Assembly: GCA_016342655.1 (NCBI GenBank)
Contig: JAEINL010000033.1
Coordinates: 1-39,951, forward strand
DNA from: Sphaerochaeta sp.
Lineage (GTDB): Bacteria > Spirochaetota > Spirochaetia > Sphaerochaetales > Sphaerochaetaceae
DNA: 39,951 nucleotides
Direction of reading: 5' to 3'
The notes beneath the pieces are model-generated. The model had not been told where the DNA came from. It did no database searches and saw nothing but the letters and a program-made list of their open reading frames with translations. The position numbers and the translations under genes are program-made. The first letter of the stretch is position 1; every line of letters starts with the position of its first letter. This document shows positions 15,198-24,087 of the stretch, one piece after another.

Positions 15198-15355
15198 AAT
15201 GAAAGGTATCAATACCCCAGGGCAAGCCCTGGAAAGAGGAGGCGTTGCCTCCTTTCCCGAGCCAAGGGGCTCACGTATCTCACCTTGCTTTCCCGGCACT
15301 CGCTCGGTAATGGAACCATGGTTATGCTTCCGCTACTCTCGCTTCGTTGGGGAAT
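15198..15355. repeat. Structured ~157-bp repeat, copy 1
   Basis: About 92% identical to 23836-23991, in the same orientation. It is built of successive hairpins: GGTAT-CA-ATACC (from about 15205), CCAGGGC-AA-GCCCTGG (15217-15232), GGAAA..GGAGGC-GTT-GCCTCC-TTTCC (15231-15257) and GAGCC-AAGG-GGCTC (15259-15272). A conserved unstructured-looking 3' half follows. The last hairpin has three compensatory pair changes relative to copy 2. There is no transposase, so it could be a MITE- or REP-like element. It lies between the ridA promoter and the HAD-gene terminator. Confidence 0.9.
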
Positions 15356-15552
15356 CAAGAGAATATCAGGGCATGCTGTAGAAAAACTTTCTTGATACTC
15401 TTCTTATACTGTTCATAGTATCGTAGAATCGTGTTGTCCGTAAGGTTTTCCTGCAGAGAGATACCTTTGCTGATATATGCTTTTTCCTTCAGCAAGATCC
15501 ACCCCTTTTTTTGAAAAGTAGGCTCATTTGGTATGAAATATCTAGATGAACC
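15355..15552 (-). pseudogene. Coding-like remnant, unidentified
   Basis: The minus strand stays open for 65 codons between a TAG (15555-15553) and a TGA (15357-15355) and reads as plausible protein (FIPNEPTFQKKGWILLKE, then ENLTDNTILRYYEQYKKS). There is no ATG or ribosome site. It looks like the C-terminal end of a lost gene; its stop falls on the last base of repeat copy 1. I do not recognise the family. Confidence 0.3.
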
Positions 15553-15620
15553 CTATGTTTCAAGAATTTTCACTACTTCACAACAGCACCAATAGCTCAA
15601 AGCAAAATACAGCAAATAGG

Positions 15621-15653
15621 ATCAAAAAACGAAACCTCCACACAACGTGGAGG
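15621..15653 (-). terminator. Rho-independent terminator of the seven-gene operon
   Basis: On the minus strand CCTCCAC (15653-15647), loop GTTGT, GTGGAGG (15641-15635), then TTTCGTTTTTTG. It lies 20 bases past the HAD gene stop and closes the run that begins at the EamA gene. Confidence 0.85.
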
Positions 15654-15673
15654 CATGCACATCAGGAGTTCTT

Positions 15674-16318
15674 TTATAGTAGGGAAAGCAACTCTTCCGG
15701 GCTGGAGACAACACCCATCATTGAGTCTGTCTTCTCTTGTCCCCTAGGGAACCCAAAGCCATAGTCAACTGCTATGAAGGAAACGTTCGCCGCTTTTGCC
15801 CCCTCTTCATCGTGCACAGTGTCACCGACGAGTACTGCGTCTGTTGCATCAACACCAAGGCAAGCAAGCACGTTGTTCACGATGTCAGCCTTGCTAAGTT
15901 TTGAAGTCAGGTCACTTCCCTTAATAGTAGAGAAATAGGGAGCAAAGCCAAAATGGTCCATCATGGAGAGAGCAAGGCTCTCAGTCTTGAGGGTACCGAC
16001 AGCAAGCAAGTAGCCCTTCTCCTTGAGCGTGCCGAGGGTGCTCTTCATGCAAGGGTACTCCTTCGCCCCAAACTGCCCACGAATATCATACTCCTTGCGA
16101 TAGTGCTCTATTGCGTCTGCAATGAGCTCCTCTTCAAGGTTGTAGGTATTGATGAAGCATTCGGCAATGGGAGGACCAATGAACTTGCTCAGTTGGGAAA
16201 TGTCATGCTCAGGCTCTCGTCCTACCAACTGCACAGCCTTGTTCGCAGTGGCAAATATTCCAGAAGAGGTATCCATAAGGGTACCATCGAGGTCAAAGAT
16301 TACTAATTTGAATTTCAT
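15674..16318 (-). CDS. HAD-superfamily phosphatase (Gph-like)
   Basis: A cytoplasmic Mg-dependent phosphohydrolase, 214 aa. Motif I is FDLDGTLMDT (nucleophile D9, acid D11), with an alpha-helical cap typical of phosphoglycolate-phosphatase relatives. A Lys of motif III occurs in KLSKADIV, and motif IV is GDTVHDEEGAKAA. The start overlaps the stop of the inositol-monophosphatase-like gene by four bases. The substrate cannot be told from sequence; phosphoglycolate, pyrophosphate and sugar phosphates are all possible. With the preceding IMPase-like enzyme it may form a two-step dephosphorylation pair. It is the last gene before the terminator. Confidence 0.85.
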   Translation of the reverse strand: MKFKLVIFDLDGTLMDTSSGIFATANKAVQLVGREPEHDISQLSKFIGPPIAECFINTYNLEEELIADAIEHYRKEYDIRGQFGAKEYPCMKSTLGTLKEKGYLLAVGTLKTESLALSMMDHFGFAPYFSTIKGSDLTSKLSKADIVNNVLACLGVDATDAVLVGDTVHDEEGAKAANVSFIAVDYGFGFPRGQEKTDSMMGVVSSPEELLSLL

Positions 16319-17109
16319 TCCTGAACCATATGAAATAACCAGTCTTGTATCAAGCCATTTGTTGCAACAAGGTCACACCGACTATCAGAAAATGGTACAA
16401 GGGGGTCAGCGGGAGCGAAAGAACCTCCAGCCTCCTCAAGTATACAGATACCCGCAGCCATATCGTAGTAGCCCAAGCAAAGTTCATAATACCCATCGAT
16501 TCGTCCAGCTGCTATGTAACTCAGTTCAAGGGCACAAGAACCATAGGACCGAAGATCACTGGTTTCCAGAAAAATGCGATACATGTTCTCAAAGTACGGT
16601 ACAGCCAGCTTATGGTGTCGATGAGGGGGGACACAGACAATAAGAGCATGGGAAGAATCTTTCAACTGAGAGACCTGGATAGGTTTGCCATTAAGGAATG
16701 CACCACCGCCTTTGCTAGCCCAAAAGAGCTCGTTCTGGCGTGGATTGAACACAACACCAACCAAAGGCTTGAAAGGGTCCATCTCCCACGCAATGCTTAT
16801 GGAGTAGTCAGGAAGGGAACGAAAAAAGTTGGTCGTTCCATCAATGGGGTCTATAATCCAACGCCCATTTTCAAGAGTCCCACTAGAGCCAGTCTCTTCT
16901 CCAAATATGGCATCGGAAGGGAAGTGTTCCCTGATGATGGAGATGATGAGGTCTTCAGAAAGCTTATCAGTTTCAGTTACAAAATCATTGGCCTGCTTCT
17001 GGTAAATAGCGTGGTTGCCCTGTTTCTCTGCCTCCAATACAAAAGCTCCTGCTCTGTTAGCCGCAGAGATGGCAACCTGCAAATGCTCTACAATATCCTT
17101 TTCAGTCAT
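16315..17109 (-). CDS. Inositol monophosphatase family protein
   Basis: A Mg-dependent sugar/inositol phosphatase (IMPase/SuhB/CysQ fold), 264 aa from ATG 17109. That start overlaps the upstream stop (ATGA) and has AAGGGG before it; the longer frame to 17166 only re-reads the neighbour. Metal-site motifs are all present: GEETG (70-74), IDPIDGTTNF (86-95) and YDMAAG near residue 214, where WDxAAG is more common. GSCALELSYIAAGRIDGY precedes the last motif. The preferred substrate (inositol phosphate, PAP, fructose-1,6-bisphosphate) is not decided by the sequence. Confidence 0.87.
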   Translation of the reverse strand: MTEKDIVEHLQVAISAANRAGAFVLEAEKQGNHAIYQKQANDFVTETDKLSEDLIISIIREHFPSDAIFGEETGSSGTLENGRWIIDPIDGTTNFFRSLPDYSISIAWEMDPFKPLVGVVFNPRQNELFWASKGGGAFLNGKPIQVSQLKDSSHALIVCVPPHRHHKLAVPYFENMYRIFLETSDLRSYGSCALELSYIAAGRIDGYYELCLGYYDMAAGICILEEAGGSFAPADPLVPFSDSRCDLVATNGLIQDWLFHMVQE

Positions 17110-19979
17110 GCTTTCCCCTTTTTTCGTTCCAGGATCCGTTCTCCCAAATTCACCACATATTTCCAATCAGTATGGGAGAAATCCTCATAGCAGATAGATC
17201 GCTCTTCTGCCTGGATAAGCATACCAGAAGGAGTATAACTCAAATAGAGCACTTCCCATCGGGTTTTCCCTTGGCTGTACATGATAGCAGCAACATTATT
17301 TTTCCTATCCCAAGAACGTAGCATATCACTACGGCCTGTTATCAAGACAACAGTCAAATCAAAGCCTGGAATGGTAAACATCTTATCCTTGTTATCAGAA
17401 AGCTGGGCCTGTCTTGCTTGTTCAATGAGAGAAGAGGTTGTCCTAAGGAGATCCTCTTCCGCTGTCTTGCAAAAATCAAAGAACACATTCTCACCCTTCT
17501 GTTCAAGCTTACCCAATATATCCCGAAGACGTTTTGGCAAAGAACCTTCCAAAGATGATTCCAGTTCTTCAAATTGAAGCAGCTCTTTCTCCACTGTTCC
17601 CACAGGCGCATCTTCAATCTTCTGAGAAACAGTCTCAGCCAAAATAAACCGAGGAGGATTCTGCACCTTCGAGACAGGTTCTGGTTCTGGCTCTGGCTTC
17701 ATATCCTCAGGCTCTACAGAAATAGGAGGCATTGCCAACCTGTTGAAAAAAGCGGGCTCTGTAACAGGTTCATCAGAAATAGTAGGTTCTTTTACTTTTG
17801 ATGGGGGAACATTTGCTATGGAAGAGAGATGTCCAAAAAAAGAAAGTGAGGTGGATGGCTGTTCCTTGGATATTTTTGGAGGATTTTCTTCTGTCTCTAC
17901 TCCAAGATATTCGTCCTCGCTTTCCTGAGTATACTGTGTATAATCATATAACTTGCTGTCGTCCTCTCCGTCTCCTTCCATCTGTTCATCAGCCTGGACG
18001 AGAGAACTACCCATTTCAGGAAAATCTTCATCTACCTGATGATCATCAATGATGCAGAATGCTTCATGCTCATACTCATCCAAGTCATCATCGTCTTCAT
18101 CAATGTCGTTGTTTTCTACAAGATTCCCCTGGGAAAACATATATTCATCTTCTAGATTGAACAAGGTTGGCTGCAGTTCAGCGAGAGCAAGCTGATCAGC
18201 AATTTCTTTTTCATCCTCATCCTCATCCTCAAAATCGGAAAATTCGTTATCGGATTCGTACTCCTGAACACTGCCCCCCTCCAAGGGAAAGTCGTCATCC
18301 TCAAACAAATCATCATCTAACGATGTATATCCACTTGTCTGAGAATCCTCCTTAGCGGGAGACACTTCCTCTAAAGGATCTTCTTCTGATATATGTTCCT
18401 CTCCTACTGGAGGTTCTTCCTCTGTTAGTTTGGGATCCTCTTCTTTACTCTCCTCATGATGAGGTTTCTGCGTACCAAAGGTAGGAAGACCTACCAATTC
18501 TTTTATCTGAGCCATTCCTTCCCAAGAGGTCGCAAGATCTGCAAGTTGGATAAGAGAAAGTGTCAGAGTGTTTTCAATCAGTTCTAGGGGATATTGGCTC
18601 TTTCTATTGGTTATATCAATAACGACAGAGCTATGAGGAACTTCTTCTACTAGGGTAAGGGCATCAAGTTCCCCTTCCAGTTGCAAGAGAGCATCTTGCG
18701 TTTGTTCAAAGGGATTGTAGGGAAAACACCCCATATGGGAAGCAGGTATCTGTATAGCGAGTTTATGCTCTAAATCTTCAAAGATGGCATCAATGTAGCC
18801 ATCACCTTGAACAACTTTTCGGGTGTAGTTCATGGTACCGAGCATGGCAGAGAAGAAGGTTAAGGGGATCAGTGACTGTTTCTCCTGCTCTAGGGCTTTC
18901 CACCTTTCTTCCAGCTCTTCACTCTTTGCACACACAGCTCTTCGTATGATCCAGTAAGCACGATTTAGCAGGGTATCACCATCAAAACAGAAGATGGTAT
19001 TGAATATCCGCAAGAAAGGACGATCATTGAGCAACGAAGTCCTGGTAAGCCAGAGCTTCGTTGCACCCTCAAGGAATGCACTGTCCTGTCCTGCATCTAT
19101 GGCCAGCAACAGAGCATCTGAGACTGAAAGGTCAGTTATCTTTCTGACAGCAAAAAGATCATACCCATCCCTTCGTCCTACAATACCTGAGACCCAATCC
19201 TCCCAACCCTGTTCACGGATGATACGATCCATGAGAGCTTGCATATCCTTATCAGACTCACCCCGGCTTTTGAGCAACTCAAGCTGCAACATACTCGCCT
19301 GCTTGAAAACAGTACTGTCCTCCCTAAGCTTGTCGATGCCCTCATGGGCATTTCTAGCCAGTTGGGCGAAGGCTGTCAGCAGGCCATCGAGCTTTGCTTC
19401 GAAGACCTCCGCGATGAGAGCATTGAAGGGTTGTAACTGGTACTTGAGGGCATTATGTTGCTTGTCCAGCAAATCCCTGTCAGGAACAGGAGGAAGGATG
19501 GTATCGGTTGCATAGTCCTGAAAAGCAACCAACATCTCTTCTGAGAAAATCTGTTGTTCGGCATAGAGAGATAGTGCATAGTTATCTGTGTATCGGATAG
19601 ATTTGCTGCAAAGATCTTCAAACAGCTTTACCAAGCGTTTCCAATCCTTCTCCTTTATCTCTGTATTCTGGGAATATGGGGCTTTTTTTGTTGCGACCAC
19701 TGACTGAAGATACGAGACCAACCGGGAAGCTGTCACTTGGGAAAACATATCGTTCGGACGGTCATGCCATATTCTTCGTTGTTCCCAACACGCCATTTTC
19801 AAAAGCTCCAAAGGATGGAAACGGTCAATCATGGATATGATGTTGGAAACATCATTATTGAGGAAAAGGGAGGCCTCTTTCAAATTTTTCTGGATCTTCT
19901 CAGCCGATACACCCATCATGCTGAGCAAATCCCATCCAGGACTGTTTTTCACAAGCAGTTTCTCCTTGTCTTTGAGCAT
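17106..19979 (-). CDS. Large acidic orphan protein, function unknown
   Basis: 957 aa, no signal peptide and no membrane segment, so probably cytoplasmic. Three parts are visible. A helical, evenly composed N-terminal half (1-485) includes KEKLLVKNSPGWDLLSMM and many Leu-rich helices. A long low-complexity linker (about 490-790) is dominated by Glu, Asp, Ser and Pro (for example DEDDDDLDEYEHEA and PEPEPEP). A compact C-terminal domain (about 795-957) has alternating hydrophobic strands (IPGFDLTVVLITGRSDML, VAAIMYSQGKTRWEVLYL). I recognise no family. AAGGTG precedes ATG 19979 at good distance. It is translationally coupled to the IMPase-like gene (ATGA) and lies 16 bases after the PNPOx-like gene. 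It could be a scaffold or spirochaete-specific structural protein, but that is a guess. Confidence 0.8.
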   Translation of the reverse strand: MLKDKEKLLVKNSPGWDLLSMMGVSAEKIQKNLKEASLFLNNDVSNIISMIDRFHPLELLKMACWEQRRIWHDRPNDMFSQVTASRLVSYLQSVVATKKAPYSQNTEIKEKDWKRLVKLFEDLCSKSIRYTDNYALSLYAEQQIFSEEMLVAFQDYATDTILPPVPDRDLLDKQHNALKYQLQPFNALIAEVFEAKLDGLLTAFAQLARNAHEGIDKLREDSTVFKQASMLQLELLKSRGESDKDMQALMDRIIREQGWEDWVSGIVGRRDGYDLFAVRKITDLSVSDALLLAIDAGQDSAFLEGATKLWLTRTSLLNDRPFLRIFNTIFCFDGDTLLNRAYWIIRRAVCAKSEELEERWKALEQEKQSLIPLTFFSAMLGTMNYTRKVVQGDGYIDAIFEDLEHKLAIQIPASHMGCFPYNPFEQTQDALLQLEGELDALTLVEEVPHSSVVIDITNRKSQYPLELIENTLTLSLIQLADLATSWEGMAQIKELVGLPTFGTQKPHHEESKEEDPKLTEEEPPVGEEHISEEDPLEEVSPAKEDSQTSGYTSLDDDLFEDDDFPLEGGSVQEYESDNEFSDFEDEDEDEKEIADQLALAELQPTLFNLEDEYMFSQGNLVENNDIDEDDDDLDEYEHEAFCIIDDHQVDEDFPEMGSSLVQADEQMEGDGEDDSKLYDYTQYTQESEDEYLGVETEENPPKISKEQPSTSLSFFGHLSSIANVPPSKVKEPTISDEPVTEPAFFNRLAMPPISVEPEDMKPEPEPEPVSKVQNPPRFILAETVSQKIEDAPVGTVEKELLQFEELESSLEGSLPKRLRDILGKLEQKGENVFFDFCKTAEEDLLRTTSSLIEQARQAQLSDNKDKMFTIPGFDLTVVLITGRSDMLRSWDRKNNVAAIMYSQGKTRWEVLYLSYTPSGMLIQAEERSICYEDFSHTDWKYVVNLGERILERKKGKA

Positions 19980-19995
19980 AACACACCTTGCTTAC

Positions 19996-20481
19996 TCATT
20001 CAAACTTCCTCTGCTTCCCTGAACAACCAAGAATATGCAATTTCCAGACACCAGTCATGTCGACCATCGTCTCTATCTGGCTTGCAGAATTCTGAGTCGG
20101 GGCAAACCTCTTGCACAAGGCCTCAAGGACCCGTGTCTTCTCTTCTCTTAGTGTAACCTCTTCTGCTGTTGCAAAAAAGGTTGCACTCTCAAATGCAACA
20201 GAAAAAGATTTTTCATCAGGGGTTGCATCCCCAACACAGGTAATACAGACACGGTTGTCCTTATGCAAGTTATCAATCTTATGCCCCTGTCTGGCACAAT
20301 GGAAGAAAAACTTTCCCTCATACTCAACAATAGAAATGGGGACAGCATAGGGAGAACCCAGGCCCAAAGGGGACTCTACTCTGGCATTGACCATAGACAG
20401 AGTCACCCAAAGGGACTCGCGAAGCAGTCGATAGGAAATCTGGTCCTCCATCTTTCTGTCAGACCTTCTCATAGGTACCAT
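19996..20481 (-). CDS. Pyridoxamine 5'-phosphate oxidase-like (NimA-type) protein
   Basis: A 161-aa split-barrel flavin-binding protein of the PNPOx-like/NimA branch. The MRRSDR opening is typical of nitroimidazole-resistance-like members. SPYAVPISIVEYEGKFFFHCA and GHKIDNLHKDNRVCITCVG form the core FMN-barrel strands. I keep ATG 20481 (GAGG six bases upstream, and TAACATG coupling to the MFS stop) rather than the internal ATG at 20472, which has no site. Family members reduce small molecules or bind FMN or haem; the actual substrate is unknown. Confidence 0.8.
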   Translation of the reverse strand: MVPMRRSDRKMEDQISYRLLRESLWVTLSMVNARVESPLGLGSPYAVPISIVEYEGKFFFHCARQGHKIDNLHKDNRVCITCVGDATPDEKSFSVAFESATFFATAEEVTLREEKTRVLEALCKRFAPTQNSASQIETMVDMTGVWKLHILGCSGKQRKFE

Positions 20482-20482
20482 G

Positions 20483-21661
20483 TTACACCTCTTCTAACGC
20501 TGGTGCGCGCATTTTCTTCCAAAAGACCAGACACAACACCACGGAAATCATAGCAAACACCGAGAAACTCTCAAAGAGCACCTTATAGCCATACCCTTCG
20601 GTAATGAACCCTCCCAAAGATGAGCCCAATACCGTAGGAAGCCCTGTTCCCAAGGAGATGTACATCGCCATACCAAGGGTGCGGTGCGTTCGCTTCACCC
20701 TCCGCGCAACAAGCTGTATGGCTGCAGGATGAAAGAACCCATAGCAAACACTATGGAGCAACTGCCCCACAATGACCCCTATAAGAGTGGGGTACCGAGC
20801 ATAGAGCAACAAGCGTATTGTCATGCCAAGCCCACTGATGAGCAATAGGAACACAGGCAGCACACCTTTCTTTTCTATAAGGTACCCAGCAAGCAACATA
20901 AGGATGATTTCACTACCTGCCCCGATGGCATTCATCAGGGAAATCGAATTGATATGCAACTCCTCCACAAGATACAACGAAAAGAAGCTTGTCAAAGCTG
21001 ACATGCTCAACCTGTTGAAGGCGATGATTATCAGACCAATGACAAAGGCAGAGTCAAACCAGGGGTTGTCAGAGAAAGGTTTCCTCTTGGGTTTTATCTG
21101 GTTCTTCTTCTGTTCGGTTGCCTGCATCCTCCCTTCCTTCCAGCTCAAAACAGGCAGAAAAAAAAGCAGACACCCAAGGAGGGCATACATGATTATACTG
21201 GAATTATCTGTAAGGACAGGTTTGCCCAAAGCAAAGTATGCCAAGGAAAAAACCACAAACCCCAACGTACCGAAGGCCCTGATACGGGAGTATTTCTGAG
21301 CATCGCCGTTGAAACGATTGGTAGCAACCGTATCGACAAGGGGCAAGAGTGAACGCAAAAAGAATGCTGTTATGACCAATGAGAAAATGGTAAGCCATAA
21401 GGGACCATTATACCCTAGGATGATCAGGCCAAGGGCTGAGGCTGCTGTTGCAATAAGCACCGTGTCCTTAAGCCTGCCTGTCTTGTCAACAATCCTTCCC
21501 ACTACTAGGGGCCCAACAATACCGGCCACCTCAAAGATCCCCAACAACACCCCTACGGCCTCGTAGGAATACCCGCTGTTACGCAACAATACTTGTAAGT
21601 AGGGATTCACTATCGCAAAGATAGAGTAGACAAAGAAGAATGAGATATACAGCTGCAACAT
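20483..21661 (-). CDS. MFS transporter (MFS_1-like)
   Basis: A 12-helix inner-membrane secondary transporter, 392 aa. GRIVDKTGRLKD after TM2 is the MFS motif A loop (G-x-x-x-D-[RK]-x-G-[RK]), and a charged central loop (EGRMQATEQKKNQIKPKRK) splits the two halves. The N-terminus (MLQLYISFFFVYSIFAIVNPYLQ) resembles nucleoside/phenylpropionate-type permeases. The direction and substrate are not known. The stop is one base before the start of the PNPOx-like gene and the start is 44 bases past the radical SAM gene, so it belongs to the same transcript. Confidence 0.85.
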   Translation of the reverse strand: MLQLYISFFFVYSIFAIVNPYLQVLLRNSGYSYEAVGVLLGIFEVAGIVGPLVVGRIVDKTGRLKDTVLIATAASALGLIILGYNGPLWLTIFSLVITAFFLRSLLPLVDTVATNRFNGDAQKYSRIRAFGTLGFVVFSLAYFALGKPVLTDNSSIIMYALLGCLLFFLPVLSWKEGRMQATEQKKNQIKPKRKPFSDNPWFDSAFVIGLIIIAFNRLSMSALTSFFSLYLVEELHINSISLMNAIGAGSEIILMLLAGYLIEKKGVLPVFLLLISGLGMTIRLLLYARYPTLIGVIVGQLLHSVCYGFFHPAAIQLVARRVKRTHRTLGMAMYISLGTGLPTVLGSSLGGFITEGYGYKVLFESFSVFAMISVVLCLVFWKKMRAPALEEV

Positions 21662-21705
21662 GGAGACTATTGTATGCTTTTGCCCCTATTCACTCAAGCA
21701 GGAAT

Positions 21706-22875
21706 TCACATCTCTAGGAAGGTTCTGGCTTTTCTCAGGGTTGCGGGGGGAAGACGTAGGTCTTCCAACGAAGAAAGGGCACACGACCCCCGTCCCCCAA
21801 CGATTCTCTCTGCATAGGAAGGTCCAATACCGGGAACTCTGAGCAACTGTTCCTTGGAAGCCCTCTTTACAGAGACGGGGAACTTCTCAGGGTGACTCTC
21901 AGCCCATATCAGTTTGGGGTCTTTTTGCAGGTTCAGGTTACCACTCTTGCCAAAGACAAGATCATCATAGGAAAAACCGTACTTCCTCAAGAGCCAGTCA
22001 GCCTGGTAGAGCCGGTGCTCACGCATCAGGGCATCGGCAGAAGTCCCCTTTTGAGGTCCGAGGTCAAAGAGCGTCAGCTGTTCGGTTTTCTCCACCCGGT
22101 TCTGTTCTCCAGGTATGGAAGGGTCCCCAAGCCCACCCTGGTAGGCACTGTAGTAGAGTCTTCCCATCTGGAGGTTGGAGTACATGCGACTTCCGTAGGA
22201 GAGAATTTCCTGATCACTTTCATCGCTGGCACCAACAATGAACTGACTGGAGGTGGACACACGAGAGAAACGCCCTCCCCTTCCTGTCTGTTCGGCGATG
22301 AAGGTGAGAGGATCGATGATATCCTTCTGATACTCTTTCATGTTGGTAAGCCGGGAGAAATGCTTGGCTCCGGGAGTCTCAATGTTTAGTGATACCGCAG
22401 AAGCATAGGACAGGGCACTCTCAATGCTCGCCCTACTCGCCCCTGGAATAATCTTCAGATGAATATACCCACGGTAGCCAAAGTGTTTACGCAAGATTTC
22501 AGCAGTTGAAACAAGCATAGCCATTGTCTTGTCTCCATCGCCAAGCACAGCACTGGAGAGAAATATTCCAATAAGGGGGCGCTTGAGCTGGAATTCATAA
22601 AAAAAGGATGCCATCTCATAGGGGGACAGAGCCACAGGACGAAAATCCTTCTCCACCCTCAGTGGACAGTACTTGCAGTCGTTGGCACAACGGTTTCCCA
22701 TAAGTGTCTTGAGAATGATTCCTGGCCCCCCACTGGCGGTCGTAGTGGGATAAAGCCACCCGTCCCCAGTATGGTTCTTCTTGCGATGTTCCTCGGGGTT
22801 CTTCGTACCACACGCACAAGACAGATCATACTGTGCATCACGGCTGAGAATATCCAGCTTTTCCTGTGTATCCAT
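21706..22875 (-). CDS. Putative DNA modification/repair radical SAM protein
   Basis: 389 aa. A CxxxCxxC iron-sulfur motif (C63, C67, C70) follows an N-terminal segment with extra cysteines (SCACGTKN). A TIM-barrel region includes SSAVLGDGDKTMA and IHLKIIPGASRASI. The C-terminal helix-hairpin-helix RVPGIGPSYAERIVGGRG (about 347-364) implies DNA or nucleic-acid binding. This architecture matches the TIGR03916 family, usually encoded beside a uracil-DNA-glycosylase-like partner (TIGR03915); no such partner is in the window. Start ATG 22875 has no purine-rich ribosome site, so initiation may be unusual or coupled to the preceding EamA gene, 48 bases away. Confidence 0.85.
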   Translation of the reverse strand: MDTQEKLDILSRDAQYDLSCACGTKNPEEHRKKNHTGDGWLYPTTTASGGPGIILKTLMGNRCANDCKYCPLRVEKDFRPVALSPYEMASFFYEFQLKRPLIGIFLSSAVLGDGDKTMAMLVSTAEILRKHFGYRGYIHLKIIPGASRASIESALSYASAVSLNIETPGAKHFSRLTNMKEYQKDIIDPLTFIAEQTGRGGRFSRVSTSSQFIVGASDESDQEILSYGSRMYSNLQMGRLYYSAYQGGLGDPSIPGEQNRVEKTEQLTLFDLGPQKGTSADALMREHRLYQADWLLRKYGFSYDDLVFGKSGNLNLQKDPKLIWAESHPEKFPVSVKRASKEQLLRVPGIGPSYAERIVGGRGSCALSSLEDLRLPPATLRKARTFLEM

Positions 22876-22923
22876 AGAAACAAGGTAACATTAGTATAGT
22901 AGTATTTGCAAGTCTTTTTTGCC

Positions 22924-23868
22924 TTATCCCTGTTGAATTTCTGGAGCTTTCGTTCTGTCCCGCATAAATTCAGAGACCAAGAGGCCACTGAGGGTGAGAG
23001 CCGTCCCTATTGCGGAAGTGGGTGTTATGACCTCTCCAAGAATGATGACAGAAAACACAATGGTAATGGCAGGACTGAGATAGAGGTAGAACGAGCTCTT
23101 AACCGCACCGATACTCTTCAGACCGAAATTCCAAAAGACAAAACAGAGGGCCGAAGCGATGAGCCCAAGAAAGAGAAAATGATAGAGATAGGGACTCTTC
23201 ACAACCACTGTGAAATCCGGAAAATCCCCAAAGAGGAGGTTGACCACCCCCATTCCAAACAGAGCATAGAAGAACATCGTCCTCGTTACCAACAAGGTGG
23301 GATAGCCTCGTCTTGCGATAACACGCGTCAGTGTTATATAGAAAGCCCAGACGATAATACCCAAAAATGCAAGGAAATCACCCAGAGGATTGAGCTTTAG
23401 CTCAGTGTGACCACTGTAACTAATGAGGGCGATACCCAACATGGAGAGTACGAATCCTACAAAATATTGGGCTTTGAGATGCTCTTCCTTCAGAATACTA
23501 TGTACTGCAAGCAGGGTAAAGAAAGGTGCTGTAGCTACAATGACACCAACATTAGAGGCAGAGCTGTAAACCAGGGCAGTGTTCTCCAGATAGTAGTAGA
23601 GAAAGATTCCGCACAGGCCTGAGCCAGCAAGAATCAGACGATCACTCTTTTGTTTGTACACCATTTTCCTGGGATTGCACAAAAAAAGAGCCAAAAAGCC
23701 CAAAATAGTTCTCACCAACAATATCTGCATAGGGGTAAAGGAGCCGAGGAGAATCTTGGTAGATATGTAGGTTGTTGCCCAGATTAAGACGACCGTAAGT
23801 ATGGCAAGATGGCCTACTATCCTGGTCCTAGGCAGAATGAAAGGTATCAATACCCCAGGGCAAGCCAT
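22924..23868 (-). CDS. EamA/DMT-family transporter
   Basis: A ten-helix drug/metabolite-transporter permease of about 314 aa with the two-EamA-repeat layout: TM1 LAILTVVLIWATTYISTKILLG, and the second repeat starting near LNPLGDFLAFLGIIVWAFYITL (both quoted only as landmarks). The start is uncertain. There is no ATG between TM1 and the structured repeat that ends just upstream. The nearest in-frame ATG (23868) lies inside repeat copy 2, created by one base that differs from copy 1. The longer frame from 24009 would encode the whole repeat. Neither start has a good ribosome site. It is first in the seven-gene run; substrate unknown. Confidence 0.8.
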   Translation of the reverse strand: MACPGVLIPFILPRTRIVGHLAILTVVLIWATTYISTKILLGSFTPMQILLVRTILGFLALFLCNPRKMVYKQKSDRLILAGSGLCGIFLYYYLENTALVYSSASNVGVIVATAPFFTLLAVHSILKEEHLKAQYFVGFVLSMLGIALISYSGHTELKLNPLGDFLAFLGIIVWAFYITLTRVIARRGYPTLLVTRTMFFYALFGMGVVNLLFGDFPDFTVVVKSPYLYHFLFLGLIASALCFVFWNFGLKSIGAVKSSFYLYLSPAITIVFSVIILGEVITPTSAIGTALTLSGLLVSEFMRDRTKAPEIQQG

Positions 23869-23991
23869 GGAAAGAGGAGGCGTTGCCCCCTTTTCCGCCC
23901 CAAGGGGCGGGTATCTCACCTTGCTTTCCCGGCACTCGCTCGGTAATGGAACCATGGTAATGCTTGTGCTACTCTCGCTTCGTTGGGGAAT
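23836..23991. repeat. Structured ~157-bp repeat, copy 2
   Basis: Second copy of the element at 15198-15355, same orientation, about 12 differences. The third main hairpin reads CCGCCCC-AA-GGGGCGG (23895-23910) where copy 1 has GAGCC-AAGG-GGCTC, so three pairs have changed on both sides. The first hairpin carries one mismatch (GCCATGG instead of GCCCTGG), which on the minus strand creates an ATG. It overlaps the 5' end of the EamA gene and lies just upstream of the divergent yjbQ-like gene. Confidence 0.9.
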
Positions 23992-24087
23992 GACTGAAAA
24001 ATTCTCCATAATGGACGGCAGTGTATCCCTAAATTCTACATCTTACAATCACTGTATGGTATACTGTGTATGCCATTGGAGGTGCAC

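Follow-up and report, generated by a model that had tools for sequence, protein, structure and literature searches.

Two copies of a repeat flank a seven-gene run in Sphaerochaeta

We analyzed a 39,951-nucleotide stretch of the genome of Sphaerochaeta sp. (family Sphaerochaetaceae; assembly GCA_016342655.1, contig JAEINL010000033.1, positions 1 to 39,951), hereafter the window. It contains two copies of a repeat on the minus strand, copy 1 at 15198-15355 and copy 2 at 23836-23991, which are 92.4% identical and flank a run of seven minus-strand genes (15674 to ~23832). Pfam searches assigned these to HAD, inositol monophosphatase, PNPOx-like, MFS, radical-SAM/HHH (sub-threshold) and EamA, with a 957-aa protein unmatched. 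A preliminary description, made from the sequence, had correctly reported both the two similar copies around the EamA-to-HAD run and the lack of a transposase gene in the repeat, and had offered several identities for it: a miniature inverted-repeat transposable element (MITE) or repetitive extragenic palindromic (REP)-like element, a regulatory RNA family, or the boundary of a recombination cassette. We find that the repeat is very probably a non-autonomous transposable element of the IS200/IS605 type (Y1, HUH), that is, a palindrome-associated transposable element (PATE), with a Y1 transposase that would act in trans.

The repeat is dispersed over its own 3.9-Mb genome (G000 in our numbering), where a 34-base pattern of one end with up to three mismatches counted about 146 copies, 75 forward and 71 reverse (control, 0). 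At one copy per 27 kb, about 1.5 are expected in 40 kb, so that two copies in the window are ordinary. The element is about 155 nt long, and 40 scored copies had 94-100% identity to copy 1. Using blastn, we found it in 10 of 26 genomes of the genus, its own included; a covariance model built from 46 copies detected it in 15 of the 139 genomes of the family, belonging to 4 of 22 genera. This survey scored 21 candidates per genome and gave at least 19 matches each in G000, G003, G008, G018, G121, G122, and G123. Carriers among the matches listed were Sphaerochaeta halotolerans 4-11 and several Sphaerochaeta metagenome-assembled genomes. Phage and plasmid collections gave no match, viral contigs no match to a 19-base exact pattern, and Rfam no match in the window at the gathering score. 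One Acidobacterium match of the pattern scan (L091) had only the 3' end in common and was taken as chance. The search for further copies that the preliminary description had proposed thus bore out its first suggestion in essence, as the repeat is a dispersed, gene-less mobile element.

The element has fixed ends and a pentanucleotide target

To define the ends, 160 distinct full copies were extracted from the loci, and 154 were used after six with short flanks or an altered end had been dropped. On the transposition-sense strand, which is opposite to the strand read in the preliminary description, the bases upstream of the left end were T (124 copies), T (148), not A (152), A (154), T (154), and T (154), followed by CCCCAACG. 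The right end is ..ACCTTTCAT, with T as the next base in 147 of 154 copies and no constraint further out. Insertion is hence 3' of a fixed target TTBAT(T), and TTCAT closes the other end. The aligned ends of 55 copies (AATGAAAGG... and ...GTTGGGGAAT) lack terminal inverted repeats. Copy 1 has its left end at the 15355 side, includes the invariant AAT on its target side, and has its right end (...ACCTTTCATT) at 15198; copy 2 has the same orientation. According to the consensus over 154 copies, the targets adjoining their left ends are TTGATT (15353-15358, minus strand) for copy 1 and GTCATT (23989-23994, minus strand) for copy 2.

Twelve pairs of filled and empty sites were obtained. The empty site has a single trinucleotide, AAT in seven pairs (one of them scored as AT owing to boundary placement), AAC in three, AGT in one, and GAT in one, and the filled copies carry the fixed AAT. 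There was neither base loss nor a variable target duplication in any of the 12 pairs, and the paired target-site duplications that the preliminary description had suggested looking for were not found. The empty site of copy 1 is present in G008 (contig C98) and that of copy 2 in G016 (contig C210); a partial copy in G008 at the copy 2 site (L239) indicates that the insertion of copy 2 is older. Pairs of poor identity or with different gaps (L006/L344, L026/L348, L035, L074:1501, L100, L103, L175, L183, and L332, and the weaker partners of copy 2) were excluded as clean empty sites, and the pair L169 and L277 was left out because of a gap of 3 (TAT) plus an alternative.

In G122, a member of another genus, some copies are arranged in tandem (L404 4905-5366), and the left flanks at L410, L411, L417, and L419 show copies that directly follow the ..CCTTTCAT sequence. 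This suggests that in this genus the element's own right end serves as a target.

The left-end domain shows covariation

Single copies did not fold unusually well, with z scores of -1.82 and -0.08 for the strand of the preliminary description and -1.80 and -1.00 for the other strand. The support for a folded form comes from comparing copies. Among 46 copies, mostly from the genus, 42 alignment cells were changed on both sides of a pair, compared with 19.6 in shuffles. After including other genera (49 copies, 48 distinct) we counted 15 covarying pairs (9.7 in shuffles) and 86 double-changed cells (22.9 in shuffles), and none of 500 shuffles reached the observed pairs or cells. Sliding the partners reduced pairing from 92.8% to 40-51%, with the qualification that the structure was drawn partly from the tested sequences and leans towards them.

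Most of the strongest covariation lies in the left-end domain (15290-15354 in copy 1, minus strand), in which an outer stem, TTCCC/GGGAA (15350-15354 paired with 15290-15294), surrounds inner helices. Here, column pair 4-67 is CG in 31 copies, GC in 11, and UA in 3; pair 21-51 is GC in 28 and UA in 18; and pair 14-57 is GC in 39 and AU in 8. Towards the right end follow the hairpin GAGCC/GGCTC (15259-15272), the nearly invariant hairpin AGGAGGC/GCCTCCT (15237-15253), the hairpin CCAGGG/CCCTGG (15217-15232), whose outer pair covaries (CG 33, UA 8), and a small terminal hairpin GGTATCAATACC (15205-15216) that adjoins the right-end sequence and showed no double change.

The preliminary description had based its case for selection on the GAGCC/GGCTC hairpin, in which three base pairs differ between the window copies and remain paired. 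The difference is present in the sequence, but as evidence of compensation it is weak: among the 88 copies nearest to copy 1, 29 have GAGCC/GGCTC, 19 have GCCCC/GGGC, 28 are mismatched hybrids (26 + 2), and 12 have other combinations, which mostly reflects mixing of two haplotypes. Judged by eye, the hybrids could pair in a shifted register to give a shorter hairpin. It is therefore the left-end stem and its neighbours, and not the hairpin originally cited, that support selection on a folded single strand.

Two loci of Sphaerochaeta sp. UBA6084 (L138 3164-3246 and L143 2022-2079) contain partial elements in which a known end is joined to other structured-looking sequence, perhaps representing a related subfamily.

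In the own genome, orientation follows GC skew rather than transcription

We compared the orientation of the copies with the local GC skew. For copies in the own genome, the G-rich strand was the transposition-sense one in 42 of 45 cases with half windows of 10 kb, 42 of 48 with 5 kb, 72 of 100 with 1.5 kb, and 64 of 100 with 0.7 kb. Over whole loci of 13-40 kb the numbers were 37 of 40, or 35 of 36 where the absolute skew was at least 0.025, and other loci pooled, mostly from the same genus, gave 35 of 46 (5 kb). Genes called with a crude open reading frame (ORF) caller had no such influence: intergenic copies between tandem genes pointed 25 times with and 28 times against the gene direction, and where gene strand and skew disagreed, 14 of 15 copies followed the skew. 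Insertions lie mostly outside genes, with 21 of 100 empty sites inside ORFs of at least 450 nt, compared with 315 of 400 random positions.

The G-rich strand is normally the leading-strand sequence, i.e. the lagging-strand template. We take the skew, from which alone the replication arms were assigned, as a probable marker of replication direction. IS608 and ISDra2 are described as targeting the lagging-strand template (PMC6006769).

A fixed target, the absence of terminal inverted repeats and of variable duplications, a covarying left end, and the strand bias in the own genome are hallmarks of Y1 transposition, and on these grounds we propose a new PATE family. The element would consist of the folded left-end domain and the right-end hairpins without any gene. 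A Y1 transposase provided in trans would excise it as single-stranded DNA and, during replication, insert it 3' of TTBAT on the exposed template strand of lagging-strand synthesis. No target duplication would be left, with TTBAT flanking one end and TTCAT closing the other.

Candidate enzymes for mobilization

The Y1 matches in G000 are of two kinds: several tnpA pieces of IS200/IS605 type, broken or fragmentary, and a single intact gene of 269 aa that resembles those of REP-associated tyrosine transposases (RAYTs), next to a frame that reads like DprA. At a threshold of 45 bits, set after the scores were known, RAYT-like matches were present in 16 of 139 family genomes, namely in 12 of 15 carriers of the element and 4 of 124 non-carriers (G001, G004, G113, and G114; Fisher 1.1e-11). 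The carriers lacking such a match are G008 (82% complete), G053 (one weak match), and G124, which has one copy of the element; the RAYT-bearing congeners of G124, G122 and G123, have at least 21 copies. The Y1 matches of G121 and G123, which have at least 21 copies each, are all RAYT-sized, and a 117-nt form of the element lies directly at the 3' end of a RAYT gene in G123. In G000, two right ends lie head to head in a 54-bp palindrome (L073 1501-1554) that is similar to an inverted pair of REPs (REPIN).

We infer that the RAYT-like Y1 protein encoded next to dprA is the most likely enzyme and that an IS200-type TnpA is the main alternative. The co-occurrence in three genera, the G123 copy adjoining a RAYT gene, and the head-to-head pair in G000 are hints that a RAYT-like protein, of a class studied for its action on solitary GTAG REP hairpins, may mobilize an element that has two ends and a pentanucleotide target of its own. 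This idea, which we hold tentatively and at slightly less than even confidence, would link REP sequences to IS200/IS605 transposition and could be a reason why RAYT genes are kept.

The same element might instead be moved by a standard TnpA of the IS200 type, whose genes survive in the assembly only as broken copies, a reading we consider possible but rather doubtful. Some Haloquadratum PATEs appear to be derived from IS605-type transposons according to PMC3119063, and several carriers have IS200/IS605-type TnpA genes, e.g. G003, G018, G020, and G122. In two of six IS200-type loci inspected (L201 in G000 and L202 in G003) the right end reads, by eye, GATACC-hairpin-..TTCATT, which resembles the terminus of the element and its internal GAGATACC-hairpin-AAA stretch; the TTCATT and the GATACC-hairpin motif are common to both loci and the element, with no match of both ends. 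Against this reading, G000 has only broken or fragmentary TnpA matches, and G121 and G123 are rich in the element with RAYT-sized Y1 matches only. In addition, 35 family genomes had RAYT-model matches exclusively below 45 bits (mostly of IS200 size), and the element was in none of them, although a search of this kind covers IS200 genes incompletely. An autonomous partner was sought by reading partial copies by eye and by searching the loci with Y1 proteins; matches outside Y1 loci occurred in five loci (L041, L061, L098, L127, and L129), and none was seen to form one element together with the ends of the repeat.

Other kinds of element were considered and dropped. The conserved block GAGCGAGTGC..GGTGAGATA, reminiscent of a guide-RNA scaffold, prompted a comparison with TnpB omega-RNA, but matches to the element in 22 TnpB loci were confined to inserted copies and stretches of 12-13 bases, and 10 of 14 TnpB 3' ends inspected finish in GTCAC, none being element-like by eye. 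G000 has 12 TnpB (PF07282) matches, several of them fragments and several with long open frames, and some of the TnpB loci (L350, L355, L358, L361, L363, L365-L368) lie near degenerate tnpA pieces. An integron attC site, a group II intron, and a DDE-type MITE were set aside by eye, owing to the absence of the constant attC flanks, ends other than GTGYG..AY, and missing inverted repeats, respectively.

The copies in the window and the gene run

Eight genomes of the genus (G001, G002, G004, G011, G020, G023, G024, and G025) have RidA-HAD and EamA-UPF0047 about 9-10 kb apart, and no element was matched at either of these places. For each window copy there is an empty site in a relative, and relatives with no element at these places retain the gene run. 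The bracketing therefore looks coincidental, and the copies appear from the comparison of genomes to be two insertions without a demonstrated relation to the operon. Copy 1 does not clearly mark an operon end, since it is followed by RidA and GcvT, which lie on the strand of the gene run; a divergent UPF0047 gene lies beyond copy 2. Copy 2 is at the extreme 5' end of the EamA gene, the longest ORF of which starts past the element (region 23836-24009). The insertion may therefore have replaced the true start codon, or this codon may lie within the last bases of copy 2. The unmatched 957-aa protein (17106-19979, no Pfam match at E 0.001) is encoded in the middle of the conserved run.

S. halotolerans (G003) also has an element in the RidA-HAD interval (L229 1505-1661). 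Its flanks are unlike those of copy 1, five relatives have empty sites, and G008 and G016, which are nearer to the own genome than G003, have no element in the interval; it is apparently an independent insertion.

Could the two copies delimit a seven-gene cassette that is mobile or can be excised? They flank the genes in direct orientation, and a deletion between elements seems to have occurred elsewhere: at L359 (1700-1990) of S. halotolerans a single element, by eye, joins a site in tnpB to a site in an IS605 tnpA, as would result from recombination between two direct copies with loss of the intervening DNA. The preliminary description's proposal of a one-step deletion of the genes is thus plausible as an event, with L359 looking like one such product. 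As a cassette boundary, however, the repeat finds hardly any credence with us, given that the gene order is kept in the eight genomes without the element at either place, that the empty sites of the two copies occur in two different relatives, and that over 140 further sites carry the same element. A structured regulatory RNA family at operon ends, selected for its RNA function, would account for the covarying structure, for the mostly intergenic position of the copies, and for the fact that the own genome and S. halotolerans both have an equally oriented copy between RidA and HAD. This is very improbable, as the orientation has no preference for gene direction and follows the GC skew, the window has no Rfam match, and the copies are clean insertions with empty sites. 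Two other loci (L353 1750-2000 and L362 1820-2060) show, by eye, a further-deleted version of the L359 arrangement.

Several observations speak against our interpretation of the repeat as a PATE moved by a RAYT-like enzyme. Regarding the insertions, the relative's empty site was AAC instead of AAT in three of six comparisons taken as orthologous, and the element in the RidA-HAD interval of S. halotolerans has the order and orientation seen in the window, so that this interval may be favoured for insertion. AAC empty sites (window 15353-15358 and 23989-23994; L335 16834-16991) seem commoner than overall divergence predicts; an alternative target model for them was rejected because A is fixed at this position in 154 of 154 filled copies. 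Not every covariation measure exceeded the shuffles, as pairs changed on both sides in the 46 mostly-genus copies numbered 8 compared with 6.4 (82 of 500 shuffles), and the number of pair types in the wider alignment was also within the shuffles (59 of 500). The strand bias was not seen in G122 (15 of 25, 5 kb, p 0.42). Regarding the enzyme, the co-occurrence with RAYT is confounded by phylogeny, the RAYT-like matches score 59-74 bits and thus below the NCBIfam cut-off of 80, G008 has many copies of the element and no RAYT match, and the non-carriers G010 and G016 have partial ones. We found no autonomous element with the same ends and no element within ~1.5 kb of the own RAYT gene, and in a simple perfect-stem scan canonical GTAG REP-like sites were not enriched at the 16 RAYT loci (3 in the surrounding 49 kb, compared with 18 in 373 kb of background).

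Comparison with known elements

The spirochaete element resembles the PATEs of Haloquadratum walsbyi, which are described as having no terminal inverted repeats, near-terminal palindromes, no target duplication, a size too short for a transposase, and a high copy number (PMC3119063). We found each of these features here, with elements of only 155 nt that are nevertheless dispersed. The same source reports IS605-like ends for the Haloquadratum PATEs and describes the IS200-type transposons of H. walsbyi C23 as all being pseudogenes (PMC3119063). In contrast to these PATEs, the spirochaete element forms one family of ~146 copies with a covarying left-end domain and co-occurring RAYT-like genes, and no matching autonomous insertion sequence was found for it. 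A PATE-like sequence has also been described in Halanaerobium (PMC7290912).

As in IS200/IS605-type elements, a fixed target lies 5' of the insertion, and the orientation in the own genome, but not in G122, is that of the lagging-strand template (42 of 45). ISDra2 of Deinococcus radiodurans likewise inserts 3' of a pentanucleotide, TTGAT there (PMC2806898) and TTBAT here, but has genes for TnpA and TnpB, neither of which is present in our element. The likeness to REP sequences and REPINs with their RAYTs consists of high copy number, intergenic position, hairpins, and a RAYT-like Y1 gene in the genome; TnpA_REP and the REPtron are described in PMC6006769 and PMC8266576. The differences are the length of ~155 nt, the distinct left and right ends, and the defined pentanucleotide target. 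A GTAG foot as in canonical REPs and REPtrons is not conserved by eye, and the RAYT loci show no excess of REPs.

Among the papers listed in our searches of the open-access literature, none named a family of this kind for this group, and a paper elsewhere is possible. The element adds a very abundant family of single-strand elements to the spirochaetes, and its orientation bias makes it a natural record of the direction of replication. With its clear ends and target, it is also a substrate for asking what RAYT proteins move, a question of the REP field.

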